DNA of 26,627 nucleotides from a virus, in IMG/VR virus record IMGVR_UViG_3300032322_001730, positions 1-26,627 of that record; one strand, written 5' to 3'. Below the pieces are notes generated by a model. It had not been told where the DNA came from. It made no database searches and was given only the letters and a program-made list of their open reading frames with translations. Position 1 is the stretch's first letter, and each line of letters opens with the position of its first letter. The translations under genes and the position numbers were made by a program. Positions 254 to 14,945 of this stretch are shown in pieces.

Positions 254-1060
254 ATGACGCACGACATCAACGATCTGAGTACGTTCGCCACCGCCTACCA
301 GGACAACGCGCCGCAGGGCGACGGGCTGTGCCGCATCAACTGGCTGAACGGCGACCCGGGCAGCAGGACGCCCGGCGCATTCTTCGTGACGCGCCGGCGC
401 ATCGAGGACCACGGCGTCACGGTCGAGGGCTCGCCGTGGCGCGAGATCGACCGGACGTTCCGCAGCGGCAGCAGCGAGTCGGGCTACGAGGCCCGGGCGC
501 TGAAGGTCGCCGTGCTGGGCGTGCGGCAGCACGACGTGACCATCGACACCGACGGCGTGATGACGTACATCCCGCGCCCGCCACGCGGCGCGCCGAAGCC
601 CGCCGGGTGGTCGCTGTACGTCGAGGTGCTGGTGATGGCGCAGGGCCTCGACACGCCGGTGGTGTGGGCCAGCAAGCGCATCAAGACGAGCATGGGGCTG
701 GTCTCGATGCTGCGCGAGTACCGCACGGCACTGCTGGAGCCGTTCCGGCGGGAGCGCAAGAACCCCGGCGTGCCCAGCTGGGCGTTCTGGCTGCCGGTGC
801 GCGGCGAGGTCGATGCGCGCAAGCAGCCGGTCTACGAGAAGACGAAGGGCTCGCCGGTGACGCCGCCGAAGCTGATCCTGCCCGACGGCGACGTCGCCAC
901 CATGGCGCGCGCGCTGTACGTCGGCAGGGCGCTGCTCGAGCGCGGCGAGGCGCTGCGCGCCCAGTACGACGCGTGGCTGCGCGAGACGCCGGCGGCGCCG
1001 GCAGCAGCGCCGGCCACGCCGCCGGTCAGCGAGGACGACCCCTACGCCGAGCCGTTCTAG
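254..1060 (+). CDS. Conserved phage protein with SSB-like acidic C-terminal tail
   Basis: The product is 268 residues, starting at ATG 254 behind a strong GAGAGGAG site. The body (about 1-240) contains short beta-rich segments, including INWLNGDPGSRTPGAFFV, WSLYVEVLVMAQG and SWAFWLPVRGE. It then has an Ala/Pro linker (APAAAPATPP) and an acidic tail ending EDDPYAEPF. That layout of folded domain, flexible linker and acidic tip ending in Pro-Phe resembles bacterial and phage ssDNA-binding proteins, whose tip recruits replication partners. The gene lies immediately upstream of a sliding clamp, which fits a replication role. I infer an SSB-like function from tail and context only; the core fold was not confirmed, and it could be another recombination or replication accessory. 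Confidence 0.55.
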   Translation: MTHDINDLSTFATAYQDNAPQGDGLCRINWLNGDPGSRTPGAFFVTRRRIEDHGVTVEGSPWREIDRTFRSGSSESGYEARALKVAVLGVRQHDVTIDTDGVMTYIPRPPRGAPKPAGWSLYVEVLVMAQGLDTPVVWASKRIKTSMGLVSMLREYRTALLEPFRRERKNPGVPSWAFWLPVRGEVDARKQPVYEKTKGSPVTPPKLILPDGDVATMARALYVGRALLERGEALRAQYDAWLRETPAAPAAAPATPPVSEDDPYAEPF

Positions 1061-3505: not shown

Positions 3506-4107
3506 CGTGGGAGCTGCCGAGCGCATACCAGCGCTACCGCGCCGAGAAGGACGCCGCCGAGGCCGTCGAGCGCGCCGAGTCCGCGGCGGCAGGCGTGCGG
3601 CCACCGAGCCGGCGGCGCAGTTCGCCACCGCTGTCGCAGGCAACGCGCGATCGAATCGCCCAGATGGCCGACGACGGCATCGGCTGCGCCGAGATCGCCC
3701 GAACGCTGGGCATCGGGTTCTCGACGGTCAAGCGGTGGCGCCGGCCCGTCGCGCCACGACAGCCGAACGACCGGGGCGGACGCAAACCGCGCGTGACCGC
3801 CGCGCAGACGGCGCAGATCCGCCAGATGGCCCTCGACGGCGTGCGCGTGGTCGACATCGCGGCGGCGGTCCAGCGCCATCCGGCGACGATCTACGACGTC
3901 CTGCGCCGTCTGGGGCTGAAGGCGGAGCGCCAGCCCACCATTGGCCCACGCGACGGGACGCTCGAGCGCGTGCGCCAGTGGATGGCGCTGCGCGAGGAGG
4001 GCGCGACGTGGTCCGACATCGCGCGCCAGTATGGCTGCCAGCCCGAGAATGTCCTGCTGCTGTGCCAGCGCTGGGGCAAATTGGCGGAGGAATCCGACGA
4101 GTTTTGA
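3502..4107 (+). CDS. Triple helix-turn-helix DNA-binding protein
   Basis: The product is 201 residues, starting at ATG 3502 in an ATGA overlap with the previous stop, behind GGAGGTG. Three HTH units follow a basic/Ala-rich N-terminus: about 45-80 (RIAQMADDGIGCAEIARTLG, then FSTVKRW), about 98-135 (QIRQMALDGVRVVDIAAAVQ, then HPATIYDVL) and about 150-190 (RQWMALREEGATWSDIARQY). No recombinase, nuclease or sensor domain is present. Three reading heads in one chain suggest binding to an extended or repeated DNA site. The stop codon lies inside a 19-bp palindrome just upstream of a strong promoter, so autoregulation or control of the downstream cassettes is a reasonable hypothesis. Confidence 0.7.
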   Translation: MTWELPSAYQRYRAEKDAAEAVERAESAAAGVRPPSRRRSSPPLSQATRDRIAQMADDGIGCAEIARTLGIGFSTVKRWRRPVAPRQPNDRGGRKPRVTAAQTAQIRQMALDGVRVVDIAAAVQRHPATIYDVLRRLGLKAERQPTIGPRDGTLERVRQWMALREEGATWSDIARQYGCQPENVLLLCQRWGKLAEESDEF

Positions 4108-4115
4108 AAACTCGT
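4097..4115. promoter_or_regulatory. 19-bp perfect palindrome, copy 1 (putative operator)
   Basis: ACGAGTTTT and AAAACTCGT flank a single central G, giving perfect 9-bp arms. The stop codon of the triple-HTH gene (4105-4107) lies inside it. It sits 33 nt upstream of the -35 hexamer at 4149. An identical copy occurs at 4914-4932. No T-tract follows, so a terminator is unlikely; a protein-binding site is the better reading. Confidence 0.6.
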
Positions 4116-4148
4116 GGAAAATTCCCCCAAAATCCCCCCTAAACCCTA

Positions 4149-4177
4149 TTGACAATCGTGTACCAGTCTGGTATTCT
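4149..4177 (+). promoter_or_regulatory. Sigma70-type promoter with palindromic operator in the spacer, copy 1
   Basis: A consensus -35 TTGACA (4149-4154) and an extended -10, TGG plus TATTCT (4172-4177), are separated by the optimal 17 nt. The spacer and the start of the -10 contain a perfect 13-bp palindrome, TACCAG-T-CTGGTA (4161-4173), so a dimeric repressor bound there would cover the -10. Transcription would start near 4183-4185 and read into the gene at 4228. C-tracts (TTCCCCC, TCCCCCC) lie just upstream. The whole unit recurs at 4955-4983. Confidence 0.8.
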
Positions 4178-4180
4178 TCT

Positions 4181-4213
4181 GGTGTCGGGGCGAGAGAGAG
4201 ACCCCGGGGCACC
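4181..4213 (+). other. 5'-UTR stem-loop, copy 1
   Basis: GGTGTCGGGG (4181-4190) pairs with CCCC and then GGCACC (4202-4213) with a 2-nt bulge, closing an 11-nt purine loop CGAGAGAGAGA. The hairpin begins at or next to the predicted transcription start and ends just before the GGAGGG ribosome binding site. A 5'-terminal hairpin of this kind could protect the mRNA or tune translation. The same 33 nt occur at 4987-5019. Confidence 0.6.
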
Positions 4214-4227
4214 TGGAGGGCACAGCC

Positions 4228-4596
4228 ATGACGACGAAGATCACCGCCACGCACACGATCCGCACCACGATGACCGAGACGGAGATCCGCACCTGGATCG
4301 CGCAGATGGAGACGACGCTGGCAGCGACGCGCAGCGCGCTCGACGAGATGCCGGACAACGACGATCTGCCAGAGGTCAAGGCGGCGTTCGCGCAGATCTT
4401 CTGGTGCGAGGATCAGATCCGCGCGGCGACCCACGCGCTGCCGGCGCGCACCAGCACGAACCTCGCCGCCGCCGAGCTGGCATGGGCCCGCGAGCTGGAG
4501 CGCCGCCGCCGCGAGGACTGCGACGTGGCGAGCATCAAGCGCGCCGATCGCGCCGCAGACGTCGCCTTCGCCCGCGAAGGCCGCCGGTTCCGCTGA
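4228..4596 (+). CDS. Small cassette protein 1, unknown function
   Basis: The product is 122 residues from ATG 4228, with GGAGGG upstream, and is the first gene of promoter copy 1. The N-terminus is Thr-rich (MTTKITATHTIRTTMTETE). It is followed by helices with charged faces (IRTWIAQMETTLAATRSALD; AELAWARELERRRREDCD) and a basic end RRFR. It looks soluble and largely alpha-helical, perhaps coiled-coil. No family is recognised. It ends in the CGC-TGA that begins the first 68-bp intergenic module. Confidence 0.65.
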   Translation: MTTKITATHTIRTTMTETEIRTWIAQMETTLAATRSALDEMPDNDDLPEVKAAFAQIFWCEDQIRAATHALPARTSTNLAAAELAWARELERRRREDCDVASIKRADRAADVAFAREGRRFR

Positions 4597-4658
4597 CCAC
4601 CGCCGCGACAGGGGCGCCGCTGTGGCGCCCCACGCACCACGAGAGGAGCACCGCCATG
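4591..4658 (+). repeat. 68-bp intergenic module R1 with hairpin and RBS
   Basis: This is the first of three full copies (R1, R3, R4) of one 68-bp sequence; R2 is a partial copy. It begins with the last Arg codon and TGA of the upstream gene and ends with the ATG of the next. The hairpin GGGGCGCC-gctgt-GGCGCCCC (4611-4631) has a perfect 8-bp stem and a 5-nt loop. GAGAGGAG follows at 4641-4648. No U-tract follows the stem. Confidence 0.8.
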
Positions 4659-4859
4659 ACGACCATCACGACCGCCGCGATCATCATCACCGCGCCGACC
4701 ACGCACGCCGCCGCCAGCTCGACCATCACCGCCGAGATGATCTGCAATGAGCTGCTGCAGCGCCGCACCCGCGCCGACGGCCAGCTGCCGGCGCTGCCGC
4801 AGACGCCGGAGGCCAGCGATGACAGCCACGAGCGCCGCAGCCGATGCTACTGGTGGTGA
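4656..4859 (+). CDS. Small cassette protein 2, unknown function
   Basis: The product is 67 residues from ATG 4656, with GAGAGGAG 7 nt upstream supplied by module R1. The first 30 residues are Thr/Ala/Ile-rich low complexity (MTTITTAAIIITAPTTHAAA). A short helix (AEMICNELLQRRTRADG) and a charged tail ending CYWW follow. Nothing identifies a family. The well-formed RBS and flanking modules support translation, but length and composition leave some doubt. The Thr-rich start resembles those of the cassette genes at 4228 and 5917. Confidence 0.5.
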   Translation: MTTITTAAIIITAPTTHAAASSTITAEMICNELLQRRTRADGQLPALPQTPEASDDSHERRSRCYWW

Positions 4860-4910
4860 GGACCACCGCCGCGACAGGGGCGCCGCTGTGGCGCCCCACG
4901 CACCACGAAC
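4857..4910 (+). repeat. Partial intergenic module R2 with hairpin
   Basis: This copy of the module runs from the TGA of the preceding gene through the hairpin GGGGCGCC-gctgt-GGCGCCCC (4877-4897) to CACCACGAA. It is then interrupted: the RBS/ATG end is replaced by the second palindrome-promoter unit, which starts at 4914. The junction marks where the promoter unit and the cassette module were joined. Confidence 0.75.
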
Positions 4911-4913
4911 CTG

Positions 4914-4932
4914 ACGAGTTTTGAAAACTCGT
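4914..4932. promoter_or_regulatory. 19-bp perfect palindrome, copy 2
   Basis: The sequence is identical to 4097-4115 (9-bp arms around a central G). Here it is not overlapped by a gene and lies 22 nt upstream of the -35 hexamer at 4955. That is 11 nt closer than in copy 1, about one helical turn. Conservation in a non-coding position argues that the palindrome itself is functional rather than an accident of coding sequence. Confidence 0.65.
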
Positions 4933-4954
4933 GGAAAATCCCCCCTAAACCCTA

Positions 4955-4983
4955 TTGACAATGATGTACCAGTCTGGTATTCT
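4955..4983 (+). promoter_or_regulatory. Sigma70-type promoter with palindromic operator, copy 2
   Basis: TTGACA (4955-4960), a 17-nt spacer and TGG-TATTCT (4978-4983) repeat promoter copy 1. The 13-bp palindrome (4967-4979) is unchanged. The only spacer differences from copy 1 are two bases just downstream of the -35 (ATCGTG versus ATGATG). It would drive the gene at 5034 and the two cassettes after it, adding to read-through from copy 1. Confidence 0.8.
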
Positions 4984-4986
4984 TCT

Positions 4987-5019
4987 GGTGTCGGGGCGAG
5001 AGAGAGACCCCGGGGCACC
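4987..5019 (+). other. 5'-UTR stem-loop, copy 2
   Basis: The stem, bulge and 11-nt GA-repeat loop are the same as at 4181-4213. The hairpin again starts near the predicted transcription start and precedes GGAGGG and the ATG at 5034. The identical distance from the -10 to the ATG in both copies shows that the leader was duplicated as one unit. Confidence 0.6.
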
Positions 5020-5033
5020 TGGAGGGCACAGCC

Positions 5034-5510
5034 ATGAGCAGCACGACGCAGACGATCATCGACGGCACGCTGGACATCGTTCGACAGGAACTCGCCGCGG
5101 CATCCGCCGCCGAGCTGGACGCGCTGTACGCGATCGAGCGCGCCGCCGCGATCGTCGCCGACAGCCTGACGCGCAGCGCCGCGATGGACCAGGCGAACCG
5201 CCAGCTGCGCCGCGCCCGCCTGGCGCAGACGCAGCTCACCGCGACGTACCTGCAGCTGCTGGCGCAGCTGGAGGTCACGGTCGCCCCGATCGCCGAGCCA
5301 GTCGCCGCGCCGGTCGTCGCCGCCGCGCCGGTCGCCTACGATGTGCGCCTGCCGAGCCCGGCGCTGCCGCGGCGCCGCGCCGCCCGCGCCCCGGCCCCCC
5401 CGGTGGTGAGCAGCGCGCAGCGCAGCGCTCCCGCCCCGGTCGCCGCGCCGGTCGCCTACGATGTCCGCCTGCCGAACCCGCCGATGCCGCGCCGCCGCAC
5501 CGCCCGCTGA
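5034..5510 (+). CDS. Small cassette protein 3 with C-terminal tandem Pro/Arg motif
   Basis: The product is 158 residues from ATG 5034, with GGAGGG upstream, directly behind promoter copy 2. Residues 1-82 are strongly helical and Ala/Gln/Leu-rich (coiled-coil-like). A Pro/Ala/Val linker then carries two 21-residue repeats, at 98-118 and 138-158. Both have the form APVAYDVRLP-x-P-x-x-PRRR-x-AR, and the second ends the protein. The two copies are also close in DNA (5325-5387 and 5445-5507), so the duplication is fairly recent. The basic Pro/Arg motif could bind nucleic acid or a partner protein. No family is recognised. Confidence 0.65.
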   Translation: MSSTTQTIIDGTLDIVRQELAAASAAELDALYAIERAAAIVADSLTRSAAMDQANRQLRRARLAQTQLTATYLQLLAQLEVTVAPIAEPVAAPVVAAAPVAYDVRLPSPALPRRRAARAPAPPVVSSAQRSAPAPVAAPVAYDVRLPNPPMPRRRTAR

Positions 5511-5572
5511 CCACCGCCGCGAGAGGGGCGCCGCTGTGGCGCCCCACGCACCACGAGAGGAGCACCGCCATG
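5505..5572 (+). repeat. 68-bp intergenic module R3 with hairpin and RBS
   Basis: This is a full-length copy from the terminal CGC-TGA of the preceding gene to the ATG at 5570. Its hairpin GGGGCGCC-gctgt-GGCGCCCC is at 5525-5545 and is followed by GAGAGGAG. It differs from R1 by one base before the hairpin (GCGAGAG for GCGACAG). Confidence 0.8.
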
Positions 5573-5857
5573 ACGCAGGATATCGTTCAGGACGCCATGT
5601 ACCGCCTGTGGGCAGACCCCGAGGATCGAGCCGCGATGGAGATCATCATCGACGAGCTCGAGGAGTCGACCCTGGTGCCGCGCCGGTATATCGTCGACTA
5701 CCTGGTGAAGCTGCCGTGGACGCTGAAGCCATGGCTGACGATCGACATCGTGCGGCACGGGCTCGTGGGCGACTACAACGATCCCGACCCGGTCGCCGAT
5801 GACGATCGCGAGTACCGCTGGCAGGTCGGCAACGATCTGCAGTACCTGAACCGCTGA
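5570..5857 (+). CDS. Small cassette protein 4, unknown function
   Basis: The product is 95 residues from ATG 5570, with GAGAGGAG 7 nt upstream. The sequence is well mixed and looks like a folded acidic protein. It has a helix at about 3-30 (MYRLWADPEDRAAMEIIIDE), then PRRYIVDYLVKLPWTLKPWL, and an acidic tail with DPDPVADDDREYRW. There is no Cys motif, membrane segment or signal peptide. Small acidic early phage proteins often act on host proteins, but nothing specific is seen here. It ends CGC-TGA inside module R4. Confidence 0.65.
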   Translation: MTQDIVQDAMYRLWADPEDRAAMEIIIDELEESTLVPRRYIVDYLVKLPWTLKPWLTIDIVRHGLVGDYNDPDPVADDDREYRWQVGNDLQYLNR

Positions 5858-5919
5858 CCACCTTCGCGAGAGGGGCGCCGCTGTGGCGCCCCACGCACCA
5901 CGAGAGGAGCACCGCCATG
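5852..5919 (+). repeat. 68-bp intergenic module R4 with hairpin and RBS
   Basis: This full-length copy joins the genes at 5570 and 5917. The hairpin is at 5872-5892 with unchanged stem and loop and is followed by GAGAGGAG. The few differences from R1/R3 lie before the stem (ACCTTCGCGAG for ACCGCCGCGAG), leaving hairpin and RBS intact. Confidence 0.8.
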
Positions 5920-6306
5920 ACGACCACGACCACCAGCAGCACGCAGATCGTCCCGGACTGGCAGCTGATCGCCACCATCACCGTGACCACGTGGCGCCCG
6001 TGGACCGACGCCGAGGCCAACTCGATGAGCACTGCCGTCCTCGCCACCTGCCTGGGCGCGATGCCGGGCGATGCGACGTGGGACCGCGTCGTGGTCGAGC
6101 TGCCGCGCCAGCGCCTGGCGCTGATCCGCGACATGCTGCGCGAGCGCTGGGGCATCCTCGGCTGGCGCAACGCCCGCAGCGGCGACATCCGCACGGTGTC
6201 GCTGAGCCTGCCGGAGCCCGAGGCGCGGGCGCTGTACGAGGTGCTGCGCGCGGTGCCGCTCAACTGGCGCGTCGAGATCCACGTGCGCCGCCCCGTGCGG
6301 ATGTGA
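5917..6306 (+). CDS. Small cassette protein 5, unknown function
   Basis: The product is 129 residues from ATG 5917, behind module R4. After a Thr/Ser-rich start (MTTTTTSSTQ) it looks like a compact alpha/beta domain: WQLIATITVTTWRPW, a helix, WDRVVVELPRQRLALIRDML, RTVSLSLPEPEARALYEVL, then WRVEIHVRRPVRM. Alternating strand/helix segments of this size suggest a ferredoxin-like or similar small fold. The family is not recognised. It is the last cassette; the following gap holds two different hairpins rather than the 68-bp module. Confidence 0.65.
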   Translation: MTTTTTSSTQIVPDWQLIATITVTTWRPWTDAEANSMSTAVLATCLGAMPGDATWDRVVVELPRQRLALIRDMLRERWGILGWRNARSGDIRTVSLSLPEPEARALYEVLRAVPLNWRVEIHVRRPVRM

Positions 6307-6321
6307 GCGCCACGCTGCCAG

Positions 6322-6345
6322 AGCCCGGGCATGATCGCCCGGGCT
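6322..6345 (+). terminator. Strong hairpin, possible intrinsic terminator or attenuator
   Basis: AGCCCGGGC (6322-6330) pairs perfectly with GCCCGGGCT (6337-6345) around ATGATC. It lies 15 nt after the stop of the last cassette gene. Only a weak T-containing stretch follows (TCACCGTTTCGTC), so termination may be partial. It is placed to end or attenuate transcription from the two upstream promoters. Confidence 0.5.
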
Positions 6346-6364
6346 TCACCGTTTCGTCGATCCT

Positions 6365-6726: not shown

Positions 6727-7098
6727 ATGATCCCGACCGAAGACGCCGAGCAGCTCGCCGTGGTGGCGTGGTGCGAAGGATATGCGCTCGCCGACGCGCG
6801 CGCCAGGCTGCTGCTGCACGTGCCGAACGGCGGCCAGCGGCACATCGCAACGGCCGCGCGACTGCGCCGCCTCGGCGTGCGCCCCGGCGTGCCCGATCTG
6901 CTGCTGCCCGTGGCCGTGGCGCCGTACCACGGCCTGTGGATCGAGATGAAGCGCCGCAAGGGCGGCCAGGTCAGTGCCGACCAGCACGGCTGGATGGACG
7001 CGCTGCGCGCCGAGGGCTACGCCGTCGCCGTGGCGCGTGGCGCCGACGAGGCGATCGAGATCATCATCGCCTACCTGGGAGGCACGTATGCCCAGTAA
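6727..7098 (+). CDS. VRR-NUC domain nuclease
   Basis: The product is 123 residues. It matches VRR-NUC endonucleases (PD-(D/E)xK superfamily; Holliday-junction-resolvase-like enzymes of phages). The expected motifs appear in order: E6/E8 near the N-terminus (TEDAEQLAV), HVPNGGQRH, GVRPGVPDLLLPV (catalytic Asp in PD), then GLWIEMKRRKGGQVSADQ (E-x-K core plus the Q-x-x-x-Q-like element). Length is normal for the stand-alone phage form. A role in processing branched replication or recombination intermediates fits the nearby clamp and SSB-like genes. The 3' end overlaps the next gene by 11 nt. Confidence 0.88.
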   Translation: MIPTEDAEQLAVVAWCEGYALADARARLLLHVPNGGQRHIATAARLRRLGVRPGVPDLLLPVAVAPYHGLWIEMKRRKGGQVSADQHGWMDALRAEGYAVAVARGADEAIEIIIAYLGGTYAQ

Positions 7099-8233
7099 GT
7101 CGCCGACGATCGCGCCGCGGCAGTGTATCCGCTGCGGCGTGCAGTTCACGCCACGCGCGCGCAACGGCGTGCGCTGCGCCGGCTGCAGGAACCGCTACAA
7201 GCCCCTGCGCCGCTGTCGCGTGTGCGACACGCCGCTCTACCGGCAGAAGTGCCCGCAGCGCGTGGTCTGCGGGCCGTGCCACGAGCGTCTGCGGGCGCAG
7301 AACCGCGTCTACTGCCGCACCTGCGGCCAGATCGGCGTGCTGCGGCGGGACACCACCGTCCCGCTGAACCCGAAGCGCTCGATCGCGCGCTGCTACGACT
7401 GCGCCATGCGCACCCAGCGCCCCTACCAGCGCCAGCGCTACGAGCTGCGCAAGAGCGCCGGGATCAAGGCGCCGCGGACGCTGCCGGTGTATCGCCATCA
7501 GACCGACGCCGAGCGCACGCGCATCGCGGCGCTGCTCGACAGCGGCCTGACGCAGCGGCAGGTCGCCGCCAAGCTTCGCCTCAACGTCCTGCGCGTGCGT
7601 CACGTCGTGCGACGTGGTGCCGCCGTGTCACTGAAGGGTAGAGCCGATGGGTCGTCATGGTCGGAGTGGTTGACCCAGAAGGAGCTGATCCGGATCTTCG
7701 AGCACGCCACGGTCATGCGCGTGGCGATGTGGCGCAGCTATGGATTCCCGATGCGCCGCTACGGCACGGATCATGCCAGCGGGCAGGCGTACATGTGGGT
7801 GATCCACGAGGACGATCTGGAGACGTGGATTCAGGATCGCAACTCGTGGGTGCTGTGGGACATGGACGACATCGTGGACGACTGGTGGCGGGCCATCGCG
7901 CTCGCGGCCCGGCCACCGGGCAGCCCCGGCTGGCTGCCGATCGGCGTGGCCGCGAGCCTCTGGGGACTGGCGCGCTCCGGCGCTGCGCGACGGGTCACCG
8001 ACAGACGCTACACGGGCCGCGTCCTGACGATGCGCTCCACCAGGTGGCTGTGGAGCGAGGACGTGGTCGCCCACGCCCTGCAGCACGACGGCCGTGTCAT
8101 CGTGGCCCCGACCGTGCCGCGCAACGCCACGCGGTATGGCACGAGCAACACCAACCTCGGCGCCTATCAGAACCGGCGGCGATCACGGCAGATCGCAGGT
8201 GATGCACTCCGGGCCGTCCCAGTGGCCCGCTGA
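7088..8233 (+). CDS. Multi-domain zinc-ribbon/HTH protein, unknown function
   Basis: The product is 381 residues from ATG 7088, behind GGGAGG inside the nuclease gene. Three successive CxxC...CxxC zinc ribbons fill residues 13-105: C13/C16-C30/C33, C43/C46-C61/C64 and C76/C79-C102/C105. A Hin-like HTH follows at about 140-176 (RIAALLDSGLTQRQVAAKLR). The C-terminal half holds two segments that look like excisionase-type winged helices: WLTQKELIRIF to HEDDLETWIQDR, and WLPIGVAASLW to WLWSEDVVAHAL. No catalytic motif is visible. An elaborate nucleic-acid-binding protein, perhaps a late-gene regulator since it is the last early gene, is the best guess. Its last 51 nt overlap the 3' end of the opposing gene. 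Confidence 0.65.
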   Translation: MPSKSPTIAPRQCIRCGVQFTPRARNGVRCAGCRNRYKPLRRCRVCDTPLYRQKCPQRVVCGPCHERLRAQNRVYCRTCGQIGVLRRDTTVPLNPKRSIARCYDCAMRTQRPYQRQRYELRKSAGIKAPRTLPVYRHQTDAERTRIAALLDSGLTQRQVAAKLRLNVLRVRHVVRRGAAVSLKGRADGSSWSEWLTQKELIRIFEHATVMRVAMWRSYGFPMRRYGTDHASGQAYMWVIHEDDLETWIQDRNSWVLWDMDDIVDDWWRAIALAARPPGSPGWLPIGVAASLWGLARSGAARRVTDRRYTGRVLTMRSTRWLWSEDVVAHALQHDGRVIVAPTVPRNATRYGTSNTNLGAYQNRRRSRQIAGDALRAVPVAR

Positions 8234-11342: not shown

Positions 11343-14300
11343 CAGATACCTCGCGGAAGCTGCGACTGCACGATGCCGCGTCGCGCGGCCTCGCTCATGC
11401 CACGCGTTACGGCGCGCTCGATGGCGTCGATGTCGCGCTGGTCACGCACTGAGCCGATGGTGATGTTGATCGTAACGCCGGTACGCCCTGGCAGCTCGCC
11501 CAGGGTGGCGATGCCTGCGCGACCGCCCGGTGGCATCACACTGCCTGGGCCCAGCGCTGGCGGCGGCGCCGGCGGCTTCGGTGGCTTCGGTGGCGGCTTC
11601 GCTGGACTCGGTAGCTTGAGGCCGTCTCGAATCCACTGCGGCAGCGCGGCGGAGGCGGCAGCGATGACGGCATTCAGCGCATCGCCAACAGCTTTGACTC
11701 CGGCGCTAATGCCTTTGCCGATTCCATCGACGATGGACTTTCCAAGGTCGCCTGGAATACTGCCCCAGCTGAACGTCTTTTTCAGCCACGTTTTGACGCC
11801 TTCCATCGCATTCACCACGCTCGTGTAGATGTTCCCCAGTGGTGCGGTGATGCCGCTCGCGGCGTCCTTGATCGCGTTGATGATGCCGGTCTTGATGTTG
11901 GCGAGGTTGCCGGTGATGCCATTCCACGCGTCCCTGATCGTGCTGGTGATGCGATCCCTGATGTTGGCGAGATACCCGGTGATGCCGTTCCACGCATCGT
12001 TGATCGCGTTGATGATCCCGTTCCGGATGTTGGCGAGGTTACCGGTGATGCCATTCCAGGCGTCTCTGATCGTGCTGGTGATGCGATCCCGGATGTTGGC
12101 GAGATACCCGGTGATGCCGTTCCACGCATCACCGATCGCGTTGACGATCCCATTCTTGATGTTGGCGAGGTTGCCGGTGATGCCATTCCACGCATCGTTG
12201 ATCGCGTTGACGATGCCGTTCTTGATGTTGGCGAGGTTGCCGGTGATACCGTTCCACGCATCGTTGATGGCGTTGACGATGCCGTTCTTGATGTTGGCGA
12301 GATACCCGGTGATACCGTTCCACGCATCGTTGATCGCGCTGACGATCCCATTCTTGATGTTGGCGAGGTTGCCGGTGATCCCGTTCCACGCGTTGCGCAG
12401 CGCATCGATGATGCCCTGCCGAATGTTGGTCAGGTTGCCGGTGATGCCGTTCCACGCGTTGCGCAGCGCATCGATGATGCCGTTCTTGATGTTGGCGAGG
12501 TTGCCAGTGATGCCATTCCACGCGTTGCGCAGTGCATCGATGATGCCCTGCCGAATGAACGTGAGAAACCCGGTGATCCCGTTCCACGCGTTGCGCAGCG
12601 CATCGATGATGCCCTGCCGAATGTTGGCGAGATGTGGCTTGATCCCGTTCCATGCCGCACTCAGCCCGCCCATGATGCCGTTCTTGATGACGTCGATGAT
12701 CGGGCCTACGATGGTCCACAGCAGCTTGAAGCCGAGCTCCTGACCCTTGACGAACAGATCGGTGATCTTCTTCAGCCCATCGCTGAATGCAGTCCAGTCG
12801 CCACGGATCAGCGCGAGCGCGGTGTCGACCACCGCACGGATCATCTGCATCGCGTTCTGGAAGAGATTACCGATGACGCCAAACGCGGCGACGACCGTCT
12901 TCATGATGCCGTCGCCGTTGTCAGCCCAGAACTGCTGTAACGCCTTGAGCGTCTCGCTGACGATGACGCTGATGCCGTGCATCACCGTCTGGATGGTGGC
13001 CTGCACCTCGATCATCGCCATGTCGACCACGGCCTGCACCTGTGGGAACCTGGTGCTGATCTCCTGCCAGAACTTCTGGGCAGCCATCACGGCGGCAAAC
13101 AGCCCGGCCACAAAGAGCGACGTCACCAGCACGATCTTGGCGATTGGCGCGGCGATCGCCACGAACGCCGCGACCAGCGCCACGCCGATCACGGCGGCCA
13201 GCGCAATGACGATCGGTACCAGATTGTCTTTGACCAGCTGGATGAACGGCTGCAGCTGGCGCGAGATCTCGGCGCCCTGGCCGGCGAACTGCTCGAAGCC
13301 CGGGATGAGCTCGACCACCTTGTCGATGAGCGTGGCGAGCGGATCCTCGGCGCTCATGACCGAATTGACGACGCCGAGAATCAGATCGCTGACCGGCAGC
13401 AGCGCCAGCGAGAACTTGTCGAAGATCATCGCCGGGACTTCGCCGAGCGACTGGATCGTCGCGCGCTCGGTGTCGGCCACGTCGCCCAGTGTGCTCAGGC
13501 TGTCGCCGGCCATGGTCATGGCGGTCATGGCCTCGGGGCCGAGGTCCTCCCACTGCGTGCCGAACAACTTGACTCCGGCGGCGTTGCGCTCGACCTCGCT
13601 CTCGATGCCGGCCAACGCGGGCATGATGATCTTGAACGCGTCCGCTGTGTCGATCGCCCCGCTCTGCAGGCCCTCATACAGGTTAACCTTGACCTCGTCG
13701 GTGAGGTCGGTGAAGTACAGCGCGTCCTCCAGATCACTGACGAACCGCTCGGCCATCTGGCCCGGCTCGCCACCGATCACCGGCTTGAGCACGACGTCGC
13801 CCTCGCCAGTTGTCAGCTCGCTGAGCCTGATCCCGAACTCCTTGAAGGCATCGGCCGCCTTGTCGGTGCCCAGCACGCCGCCAGCCATCCCGCTCTCCAG
13901 CATCGAGAAAAACTCGGTCGCGCTGGCGCCATTGTCGGCGAACAGGTTGCTGTACTCGCCGATGGAGTCCAGGAAGTCGCCGCTCGCATCGAGGCCTCGA
14001 GCGAAGCCGGACGCGATCACGTCCGTGGCCTCCGCGCTGGTGAGGCCGAACTCCTCCATGAGCGTGCGCGTGGCAGCGATCACAGATGTCACGTCCGTGC
14101 CGTATCGTCGCGCCAGCAGCTGCGCGTCGTCGAGGACGGCCGTGAGGTCGACATCGTTCAGGCCCTGCAGCACCGTGCGTGCGGTACTGGCCTGATCGCC
14201 GATGTTGATCAGCCCCGCGCCGATCGCAGCGATGCCGCCCACCGCCGCCGCCGCCGCGCCCTTGCCCAGCCCGACGAGCCCGGTGTTCAGATCGCCGAGC

Positions 14301-14353
14301 GCCTTCTGGGCCTCGTTGCGGAGCTTGACGATGATTTCGAGATTGAAGGCCAC
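11342..14353 (-). CDS. Tape measure protein
   Basis: The product is 1003 residues, by far the longest gene, and sets tail length. It starts at GTG 14353, whose G is the last base of the GT chaperone stop (TAGTG), with GGAG 7 nt upstream. The N-terminus is a Gly/Ala hydrophobic stretch (AAAAAVGGIAAIGAGL) followed by a TMP-family domain (about 50-330: LARRYGTDVTSVIAATRTLM and others). A membrane-type hydrophobic region spans about 378-425. Residues 566-851 are thirteen 22-residue repeats. The C-terminus is Pro-rich (PAKPPPKPPKPPAPPP). Position between the chaperones and Dit is classical. At roughly 0.15 nm per residue, the tail would be near 150 nm. Confidence 0.93.
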   Translation of the reverse strand: MAFNLEIIVKLRNEAQKALGDLNTGLVGLGKGAAAAAVGGIAAIGAGLINIGDQASTARTVLQGLNDVDLTAVLDDAQLLARRYGTDVTSVIAATRTLMEEFGLTSAEATDVIASGFARGLDASGDFLDSIGEYSNLFADNGASATEFFSMLESGMAGGVLGTDKAADAFKEFGIRLSELTTGEGDVVLKPVIGGEPGQMAERFVSDLEDALYFTDLTDEVKVNLYEGLQSGAIDTADAFKIIMPALAGIESEVERNAAGVKLFGTQWEDLGPEAMTAMTMAGDSLSTLGDVADTERATIQSLGEVPAMIFDKFSLALLPVSDLILGVVNSVMSAEDPLATLIDKVVELIPGFEQFAGQGAEISRQLQPFIQLVKDNLVPIVIALAAVIGVALVAAFVAIAAPIAKIVLVTSLFVAGLFAAVMAAQKFWQEISTRFPQVQAVVDMAMIEVQATIQTVMHGISVIVSETLKALQQFWADNGDGIMKTVVAAFGVIGNLFQNAMQMIRAVVDTALALIRGDWTAFSDGLKKITDLFVKGQELGFKLLWTIVGPIIDVIKNGIMGGLSAAWNGIKPHLANIRQGIIDALRNAWNGITGFLTFIRQGIIDALRNAWNGITGNLANIKNGIIDALRNAWNGITGNLTNIRQGIIDALRNAWNGITGNLANIKNGIVSAINDAWNGITGYLANIKNGIVNAINDAWNGITGNLANIKNGIVNAINDAWNGITGNLANIKNGIVNAIGDAWNGITGYLANIRDRITSTIRDAWNGITGNLANIRNGIINAINDAWNGITGYLANIRDRITSTIRDAWNGITGNLANIKTGIINAIKDAASGITAPLGNIYTSVVNAMEGVKTWLKKTFSWGSIPGDLGKSIVDGIGKGISAGVKAVGDALNAVIAAASAALPQWIRDGLKLPSPAKPPPKPPKPPAPPPALGPGSVMPPGGRAGIATLGELPGRTGVTINITIGSVRDQRDIDAIERAVTRGMSEAARRGIVQSQLPRGI
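11801..12658 (-). repeat. Thirteen tandem 66-bp repeats in the tape measure gene
   Basis: The repeats encode 22-residue units of the form DAWNGITG-x-LANI-x-x-x-I-x-x-AI-x. Units 1-4 share RQGIIDALR or KNGIIDALR endings, units 5-8 share KNGIV(N/S)AI endings, and unit 13 is diverged (DAASGITAPLG). Units 9 and 11 are identical in protein and differ in DNA only at synonymous sites, pointing to a 132-bp two-unit duplication. The heptad-like Trp/Ile spacing suits a long helical rod. Unit gain or loss would change tail length in about 3-nm steps. Confidence 0.9.
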
Positions 14354-14945
14354 TATCGTCTCCGCTCTGCGCGCTTCTGCTCGGCCTCGCGCTCCTCGTG
14401 ACGTGCCTCGTATGCTGCCATGATCTCGTCGAGCGCGTCGGGATCGAGATCGTCGACGTCGGCCAGGTTCAGCCTGGCCACGTCCATCAGCAGCAGCGAG
14501 ATGTGGGCATCATACTGCCCGGCGCTGACCGCGCGGCCCTTGATCCGGCTGCGCCATCGCGTGGTCAGCTCCCGGCGTTTGGGCTTCGGCGGCTGTTGCG
14601 ATCGCTGATCTCCTGCAGCACGCGCTGCACCAGCGGCTCCAGCGGGTCGAGGTCGCCGACGTTCTCGGCAGTGCAGGGCACGCCGGCGAACGCCGGACCC
14701 TGCCACGACAGGATGTTCTGCCGCAGCAGCGCGATCTGGTAGAGGCCAACGTCGATCTCGACATCCGGCGTTCCTGTGCGACCGTTGACGCGGCTGGTCG
14801 AGACACTGGTGGCCTCGCTCTGCACCGCCTGCTGCACGGCGACGCTCATGCGCGAGCGGATCCAGATCACGTCCATGTCGGGGGTGATGGCGGCCTCGGC
14901 GATCTCTCCGTGCTGAGTGATCGCCGACTTTCCTCGAGCGAACAT
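14353..14945 (-). CDS. Tail assembly chaperone GT (made by -1 frameshift)
   Basis: The long chaperone form is made by reading from ATG 14945 to the slippery site at 14577-14583, shifting -1, and continuing to TAG at 14353-14355. With one base read twice this gives 197 residues, and the length arithmetic is exact (594 nt). The added T part is Lys/Arg-rich and then acidic-helical (LLLMDVARLNLADVDDLDPD; DEIMAAYEARHEEREAEQ), typical of T domains that bind tape measure protein. G and GT coat the tape measure before tube polymerisation. The gene pair lies exactly between tail tube and tape measure, as in lambda and HK97-like phages. Confidence 0.8.
14565..14945 (-). CDS. Tail assembly chaperone G
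   Basis: The short in-frame product is 126 residues from ATG 14945, with AAGGAG 7 nt upstream, to TGA at 14565. The protein opens MFARGKSAITQHGEIAEAAI and has a mixed middle (PDVEIDVGLYQIALLRQNIL). Its C-terminal helix (LEPLVQRVLQEISDRNSRR) leads into the slippery codons. Most ribosomes should make this form, with a minority shifting to GT. It has no membrane segment and is not expected in the mature virion. It begins 12 nt after the tail tube stop. Confidence 0.8.
   Translation of the reverse strand: MFARGKSAITQHGEIAEAAITPDMDVIWIRSRMSVAVQQAVQSEATSVSTSRVNGRTGTPDVEIDVGLYQIALLRQNILSWQGPAFAGVPCTAENVGDLDPLEPLVQRVLQEISDRNSRRSPNAGS
14577..14583 (-). promoter_or_regulatory. -1 ribosomal slippery heptamer CCCAAAC
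   Basis: On the minus strand the G frame reads AGC CCA AAC GCC. The heptamer C-CCA-AAC fits X-XXY-YYZ and allows both tRNAs to re-pair as CCC-AAA after a -1 slip. The shifted frame then continues KRRELTTRW into the T domain. The G stop follows 9 nt after the heptamer, so the slip must occur here or just upstream. Confidence 0.8.

Follow-up and report, generated by a model that had tools for sequence, protein, structure and literature searches.

The locus described here raises the question of how a series of small genes without any resemblance to each other could come to stand behind almost the same leader sequence, and what each leader, which combines a hairpin with an SD sequence, might do for the gene that follows. 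It lies in the window, i.e. the whole stretch of DNA that was analysed, which is a virus record of 26,627 bases (69% GC) and carries tailed-phage genes for capsid, portal, terminase and tape measure. From our point of view, the most probable answer (roughly two chances in three) is that the locus represents a promoter-headed operon in which every small gene has its own leader of hairpin and SD, and in which homologous recombination between the repeated modules adds, deletes and swaps genes.

Architecture of the array

A cassette-like array of modules, as observed in the initial annotation, is confirmed at 4591-5919 (Table 1). The three complete copies, R1, R3 and R4, span CGC-TGA to ATG and are about 93-98% identical to each other, so that both their lengths and their likeness agree with the earlier description as near-identical elements of 68 bp. 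The order of parts in the window is CGC-TGA, the hairpin GGGGCGCC-GCTGT-GGCGCCCC, then CACGAGAGGAGCACCGCC and finally the ATG, with 14 nt between stop and stem and 24 nt between stem and ATG. R2, which had been read as the same element interrupted by a second promoter unit, indeed breaks off after ...CACCACGA and is followed by a 115-bp duplicated promoter unit. Stem, loop and GAGAGGAG had been called invariant; this applies to R1, R3 and R4 but not to R2, from which GAGAGGAG has been lost. Exact copies of the 21-nt hairpin occur four times in the window, all on the + strand, and with up to three mismatches eight matches were observed against 0.01 expected by chance, all real matches being located in the array. 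These correspond to four per strand because the hairpin is near-palindromic. The shared sequence often extends into the coding region, as the module-preceded genes of the window and its close relatives begin with ATGACG.

Table 1. Positions of the array features in the window
Feature	Positions	Strand	Remarks
Palindrome ACGAGTTTTGAAAACTCGT	4097-4115	+	upstream of the array promoter
Sigma70-type array promoter	4149-4177	+	TTGACA-17-TATTCT, TG before -10; promoter scan
Operator-like dyad TACCAGTCTGGTA	4161-4173	+	in the promoter spacer
Cassette gene A	4228-4596	+	122 aa, no family
Module R1	4591-4658	+	68 bp; Arg codon-TGA-hairpin (4611-4631)-SD-ATG
Cassette gene B	4656-4859	+	67 aa, no family
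Truncated module R2	4861-4908	+	hairpin 4877-4897; SD lost
Second promoter-unit copy	4923-5037	+	94% identical to 4117-4231; precedes gene C
Second promoter	4955-4983	+	with second operator (4967-4979), inside the duplicate promoter unit
Cassette gene C	5034-5510	+	158 aa
Module R3	5505-5572	+	68 bp; hairpin 5525-5545
Cassette gene D	5570-5857	+	95 aa
Module R4	5852-5919	+	68 bp; hairpin 5872-5892
Last gene E	5917-6306	+	129 aa; sole array gene common to the sister lineage (53-55% aa)
Terminator-like hairpin AGCCCGGGC...GCCCGGGCTT	6321-6346	+	after E; without long T run

According to the promoter scan, consensus promoters are present only in the two promoter units and in none of the modules. 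The right half of the upstream palindrome, AAAACTCGT(G/C)G, precedes the array promoter in each of the three lineages described below, in every record that covers the region, and is perhaps a regulator site. The full palindrome stands twice in the window, the second time at 4914-4932, and overlaps the stop codon of the gene before it. Among the records read, the dyad form TACCAN3TGGTA is confined to array promoters; in the sister phage G007 the promoter dyad reads TACCACCATGGTA, with the arms kept and a new centre. The hairpin after gene E was not called by a scan for consensus terminators.

The genes between the modules had been described as wholly different, and in BLASTP none of A, B, C, D and E matched another. 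For none of the slot genes scanned against Pfam, PHROGs and PADLOC did a convincing protein family emerge. A match of gene D to AbiEii (E 0.003) was taken as chance, and the AlphaFold model of gene E (mean pLDDT 60) was too weak for a structure search. Gene C contains an internal repeat with 120-bp spacing that reaches the 5' flank of the module (5306-5534), and the tape measure gene carries 66-bp (22-residue) tandem repeats (11739-12698). A VRR-NUC gene (6727-7098) and a sliding clamp gene (1109-2296) are situated near the array. Among the part of the genes that was scanned, no single-strand annealing protein or other phage recombinase was recognised, and no integrase or integron integrase was found among the scanned genes around the array. 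The nearest terminases and capsids are distant and come from mixed hosts.

Slot content and module conservation in three phage lineages

The two viral-contig relatives of the window, G001 and G002, which make up lineage 1 together with it, are about 98% identical to it, and their arrays differ by whole genes. With P for the promoter unit, M for the module and M* for its truncated form, the order is P-A-M-B-M*-P-C-M-D-M-E in the window, P-C-M-X-M-D-M-E in G001 and C-M-D-M-E in G002. Gene X (110 aa) is placed exactly between two modules at the R3 site of G001 and is absent from both the window and G002, and within lineage 1 the genes A and B occur in the window only. The array is not the only variable locus, an idea that was rejected, but one of several. 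G001 carries an extra lipoprotein-like gene (L005, reverse strand, 7406-7854) at the site where, in the window, one gene ends at 240 and the next starts at 254; it is flanked by a repeat of ~19 bp, CTGA(G/C)AGGAGCCGCATCATGA (stop-SD-ATG), of which the window has a single copy (236-257). Gene Y (219 aa; G001, L005, reverse strand, 13910-14569) is likewise absent from the window (at 6729), and a relative of it follows the array in some sister phages.

These sister phages, which constitute lineage 2, were found by a terminase search (79% identity); five of them carry the module in 2-4 copies each, in the form TGACACCGACGACGACGACCGGGCGCCGCTGTGGCGCCCGGCACTGACCAGACAGGAGACACGACCATG with small variations. 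Their arrays share the promoter design and end with gene E (53-55% aa), and in BLASTP none of their slot genes a, b, c, d, f and g matched A, B, C, D or X. The orders are a-b-c-E in G003 and G005, a-b-d-E in G004, f-b-c'-E in G007 and g-a-b-c-E in G008. As such, gene a occupies slot 1 in G003-G005 and slot 2 in G008 and is absent in G007, and its junction CAGGAGACACCGACC-ATGCAG is identical after the promoter leader (G003) and after a module (G008). Other genes appear to be composites: c' of G007 is chimeric, with a module and the first codons of b joined to the body of c, and f of G007 equals g plus an extra fused N-terminal domain. Gene d (G004, slot 3) is related both to g (G008, slot 1) and to the C-terminal part of f, and the d-E junction of G004 is without a module.

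Lineage 3 is represented by records with 47% G+C and a terminase of 55% identity, and shows the same layout in another sequence. Its module, TAAGACTCGCAAGCAA-TGGTGCCAG-7 nt-CTGGCACCA-CACAGAAAGGAAACGACC-ATG, measures 56-58 nt from stop over hairpin and SD to ATG; G009 has four copies of it and G010 has two. Behind the promoter G009 has h-i-j-k-last and G010 has h-k-last, i.e. the genes i and j, which lie between modules in G009, are missing from G010. The stems of lineage 3 and of lineages 1 and 2 both contain GGYGCC...GGCRCC, and the SD parts are alike, whereas the arrays have different neighbours upstream and end in unrelated genes. Across the lineages, the module spans 56-66 nt and consists of a stop, 14-19 nt, a hairpin of 8-9 bp, 21-27 nt with a strong SD and the start codon. 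Outside the array, a conserved gene (27% identical to window 254-1060) is preceded by three different hairpins in three lineage-3 records (L035 619-667; L037 3680-3726, minus; L064 near 170-215, minus), and the stem in L037 is the same as in array module 2 of G009.

The module appears to be specific to these arrays. Its 19-mer core GGGCGCCGCTGTGGYGCCC was found, among 2.9 million viral contigs, in only seven records related to the window and always within the array, which together with the window gives eight records of two lineages. The full module pattern had no match in 84,980 genomes (species), gene E was found in none of them, and the DNA of the three arrays had no match among 50,697 phage records. 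Two viral contigs with an SD-only pattern (L010 and L011), without hairpin or synteny, were set aside as chance matches. Module copies within a lineage are on average 91-97% alike, in contrast to 69% when lineages 1 and 2 are compared at the junction they share, before E, which implies that copies spread or were homogenised after the split. Within lineage 2, copies of the same genome (0.963) and of the same junction (0.970) are nearly equally similar, and ongoing conversion is therefore not claimed.

The proposals of the initial annotation can be judged on this basis. The module extends beyond one tandem duplication, as it is shared by two lineages and the third has the same layout; slot number and slot content vary among ~98% identical genomes as well as within lineages 2 and 3; and instead of a fixed gene order without module conservation, the slots differ and the module is conserved.

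Explanations for the module and its hairpin

The loop GCTGT is invariant in 18 hairpin copies of lineages 1 and 2, and the outer stem pair is G-C in lineage 1 and C-G in lineage 2, with a G-U wobble in two copies of G008. One stem pair of lineage 3 is U-A, C-G or U-G and thus paired throughout, and the loop there varies freely while the stem is kept. Every hairpin has the same orientation as the genes around it, and in lineages 1 and 2 all of them belong to a single operon and a single strand. The predicted lineage 1 fold scores little better than shuffled sequence of equal GC (z -1.3 to -1.8); with a folding energy this ordinary, the support for the hairpin is its conservation. Compensatory changes amount to one pair per comparison with non-significant shuffle controls, and Rfam 15 covariance models gave no match with E up to 1. 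Taken together, the stem-pair changes and the differing hairpins of lineage 3, though small in count, favour RNA hairpins over a fixed DNA site; a protein-bound DNA dyad, however, would likewise preserve symmetry.

A clearly less probable view is that the hairpin serves mainly to bind a protein or an antitermination factor, as RNA hairpin or DNA dyad, and so coordinates expression, with gene turnover being incidental. The constant loop of two lineages and the constant position of the hairpin would fit such a role, and related actinophage repeats (ESAS, cluster O/EG) have been interpreted as binding sites (PMC3203893, PMC4351075). The freedom of the loop in lineage 3 and the restriction of the sites to one operon and strand in lineages 1 and 2 argue against it, and the exchange of slots at modules is documented whatever the function of the site. 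That the hairpins represent weak intrinsic terminators or attenuators, which grade expression along the operon, seems unlikely. A stable GC stem does directly follow each stop codon, and U-poor terminators have been proposed in GC-rich bacteria, but no T run follows the stem, the terminator scan called none of the hairpins, and lineage 3 is also without a T run, which would be easy to form at 47% G+C.

All records compared are metagenomic, repeats of 65 bp can mislead assemblers and the promoter unit of the window is duplicated, from which one could suspect local tandem duplication or assembly error without any real cassette exchange. We consider this very improbable, since the slot genes are mutually unrelated, differing slot genes are found in records from different metagenomes and in three lineages, and X is missing from two separate records, the window and G002. 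Even less credible is site-specific, integron-like recombination at the hairpin: a row of small genes bordered by hairpin-bearing repeats would be expected from it, yet these repeats include an SD and a start codon and do not resemble attC, lineage 3 has a different module, no integrase stands near the array among the scanned genes, and the inferred crossovers fall at differing points. Junctions 5' of the hairpin, in the SD and in the first codons, together with the module-less gene gain in G001, fit general homologous recombination instead. As that gain happened at a stop-SD-ATG repeat without module, the module is maybe not special for recombination.

According to the explanation we prefer, the locus would be an accessory-gene operon of HK97-type tailed phages, organised as a cassette array. 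The sigma70-type promoter with its dyad operator would drive a variable chain of small genes, whose end in lineages 1 and 2 is marked by a conserved gene followed by a terminator-like hairpin. Each gene would be translated from its own SD regardless of the sequence upstream, and the hairpin in the transcript most likely separates the cistrons, either by blocking translational coupling or by protecting 3' ends. Because the same module is present at most junctions, homologous recombination of cassettes is possible; it may take place inside one phage or between phages that co-infect, the crossovers falling in the module or in the first codons, so that cassettes could be inserted, deleted, swapped or fused in frame with a working leader. 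The earlier suggestion that recombination between modules could shuffle or add genes that arrive with a ready leader is thereby supported by the slot variation, the recombination itself being read from its footprints. One could speculate further, and this is tentative, that the stop-hairpin-SD-start module, which has no promoter, serves as a dedicated leader for gene acquisition, of which at least three lineages (66-69% and 47% G+C) keep their own versions for single-operon arrays of exchangeable small genes, perhaps for counter-defence or takeover, and which would be an analogue of integron cassettes that works by homologous recombination alone.

The array bears on how tailed phages pick up individual small genes and express them immediately. 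Genomes that are nearly identical differ by whole genes at the leader module, which makes the array a case where signals for translation coincide with homology for recombination. It also offers testable units, namely module, slot, promoter and last gene, as well as a simple sequence signature to find accessory, possibly counter-defence, genes in uncultured phages.

Relation to known systems

Integron arrays consist of linear small genes with intervening repeats, variable content and a common head promoter, and the same is true here; unlike in integrons, no integrase was found among the scanned genes, attC features are lacking and the inferred crossovers occupy several positions. Other comparable cases are the boundary sequences of lambdoid phages and gene gain at short direct repeats. 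In an example of such a gain, gene 14 of Corndog, a gene of one phage only, lies between copies of a direct repeat of which relatives have just one (PMC4351075). Compared to both, the repeat described here is a longer leader and is reused at nearly every junction of the operon.

Short dyads in small intergenic gaps are also found as inverted repeats in cluster O mycobacteriophages and cluster EG Microbacterium phages (PMC4351075, PMC7302621). Those of cluster EG precede start codons by 14-22 bp and are retained even where the genes vary (PMC7302621), and those of cluster O also occur within genes and without meaningful orientation (PMC4351075). Unlike here, neither an SD unit nor slot exchange is described with these dyads (PMC4351075, PMC7302621). 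The SAS/ESAS of cluster K mycobacteriophages and cluster EF Microbacterium phages, similar to our module, combine a conserved sequence at the SD position with an upstream element before genes of different families (PMC3203893, PMC7302621). The comparison with cluster K drawn in the initial annotation is fair in principle, as an inverted repeat upstream of a conserved SD (PMC3203893) is present here as well, but the sequence differs: the 13-bp GGGATAGGAGCCC at cluster K starts is absent, and the SD unit is CACGAGAGGAGCACCGCC or CAGACAGGAGACACGACC. Moreover, the inverted repeats of cluster K are about 17 bp, imperfect and not consistent with RNA hairpins (PMC3203893), whereas the stems of the present modules measure 8-9 bp, are kept through paired or wobble changes and belong to a repeat that spans stop to start. 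SAS/ESAS copies are furthermore spread over many genes, while the modules of lineages 1 and 2 reside in one operon and bound exchangeable slots.

The T4-type PeSLs, promoter early stem-loop cassettes (Arbiol 2010; Comeau 2014; as cited in PMC4503421, PMC3950731), share with the array a repeated stem-loop in the gaps of a variable small-gene region and a proposed homology-based modular shuffling. Each PeSL holds an early promoter, whereas the modules here provide SD and start codon, are promoter-less and lie inside one operon; the phages and the sequences are different as well, since the records of ~30 kb, with PHROGs matches for capsid, portal, terminase and tape measure, are far below T4 size. 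The arrangement had been considered a possibly undescribed one, which needs to be tempered given that shuffling cassettes (the PeSLs) and start-associated repeats (clusters K, EF and EG) were described before. Overall, what is distinct here is the promoter-less module that runs from stop to start, its confinement to one operon in lineages 1 and 2, and the direct slot variation in three lineages.
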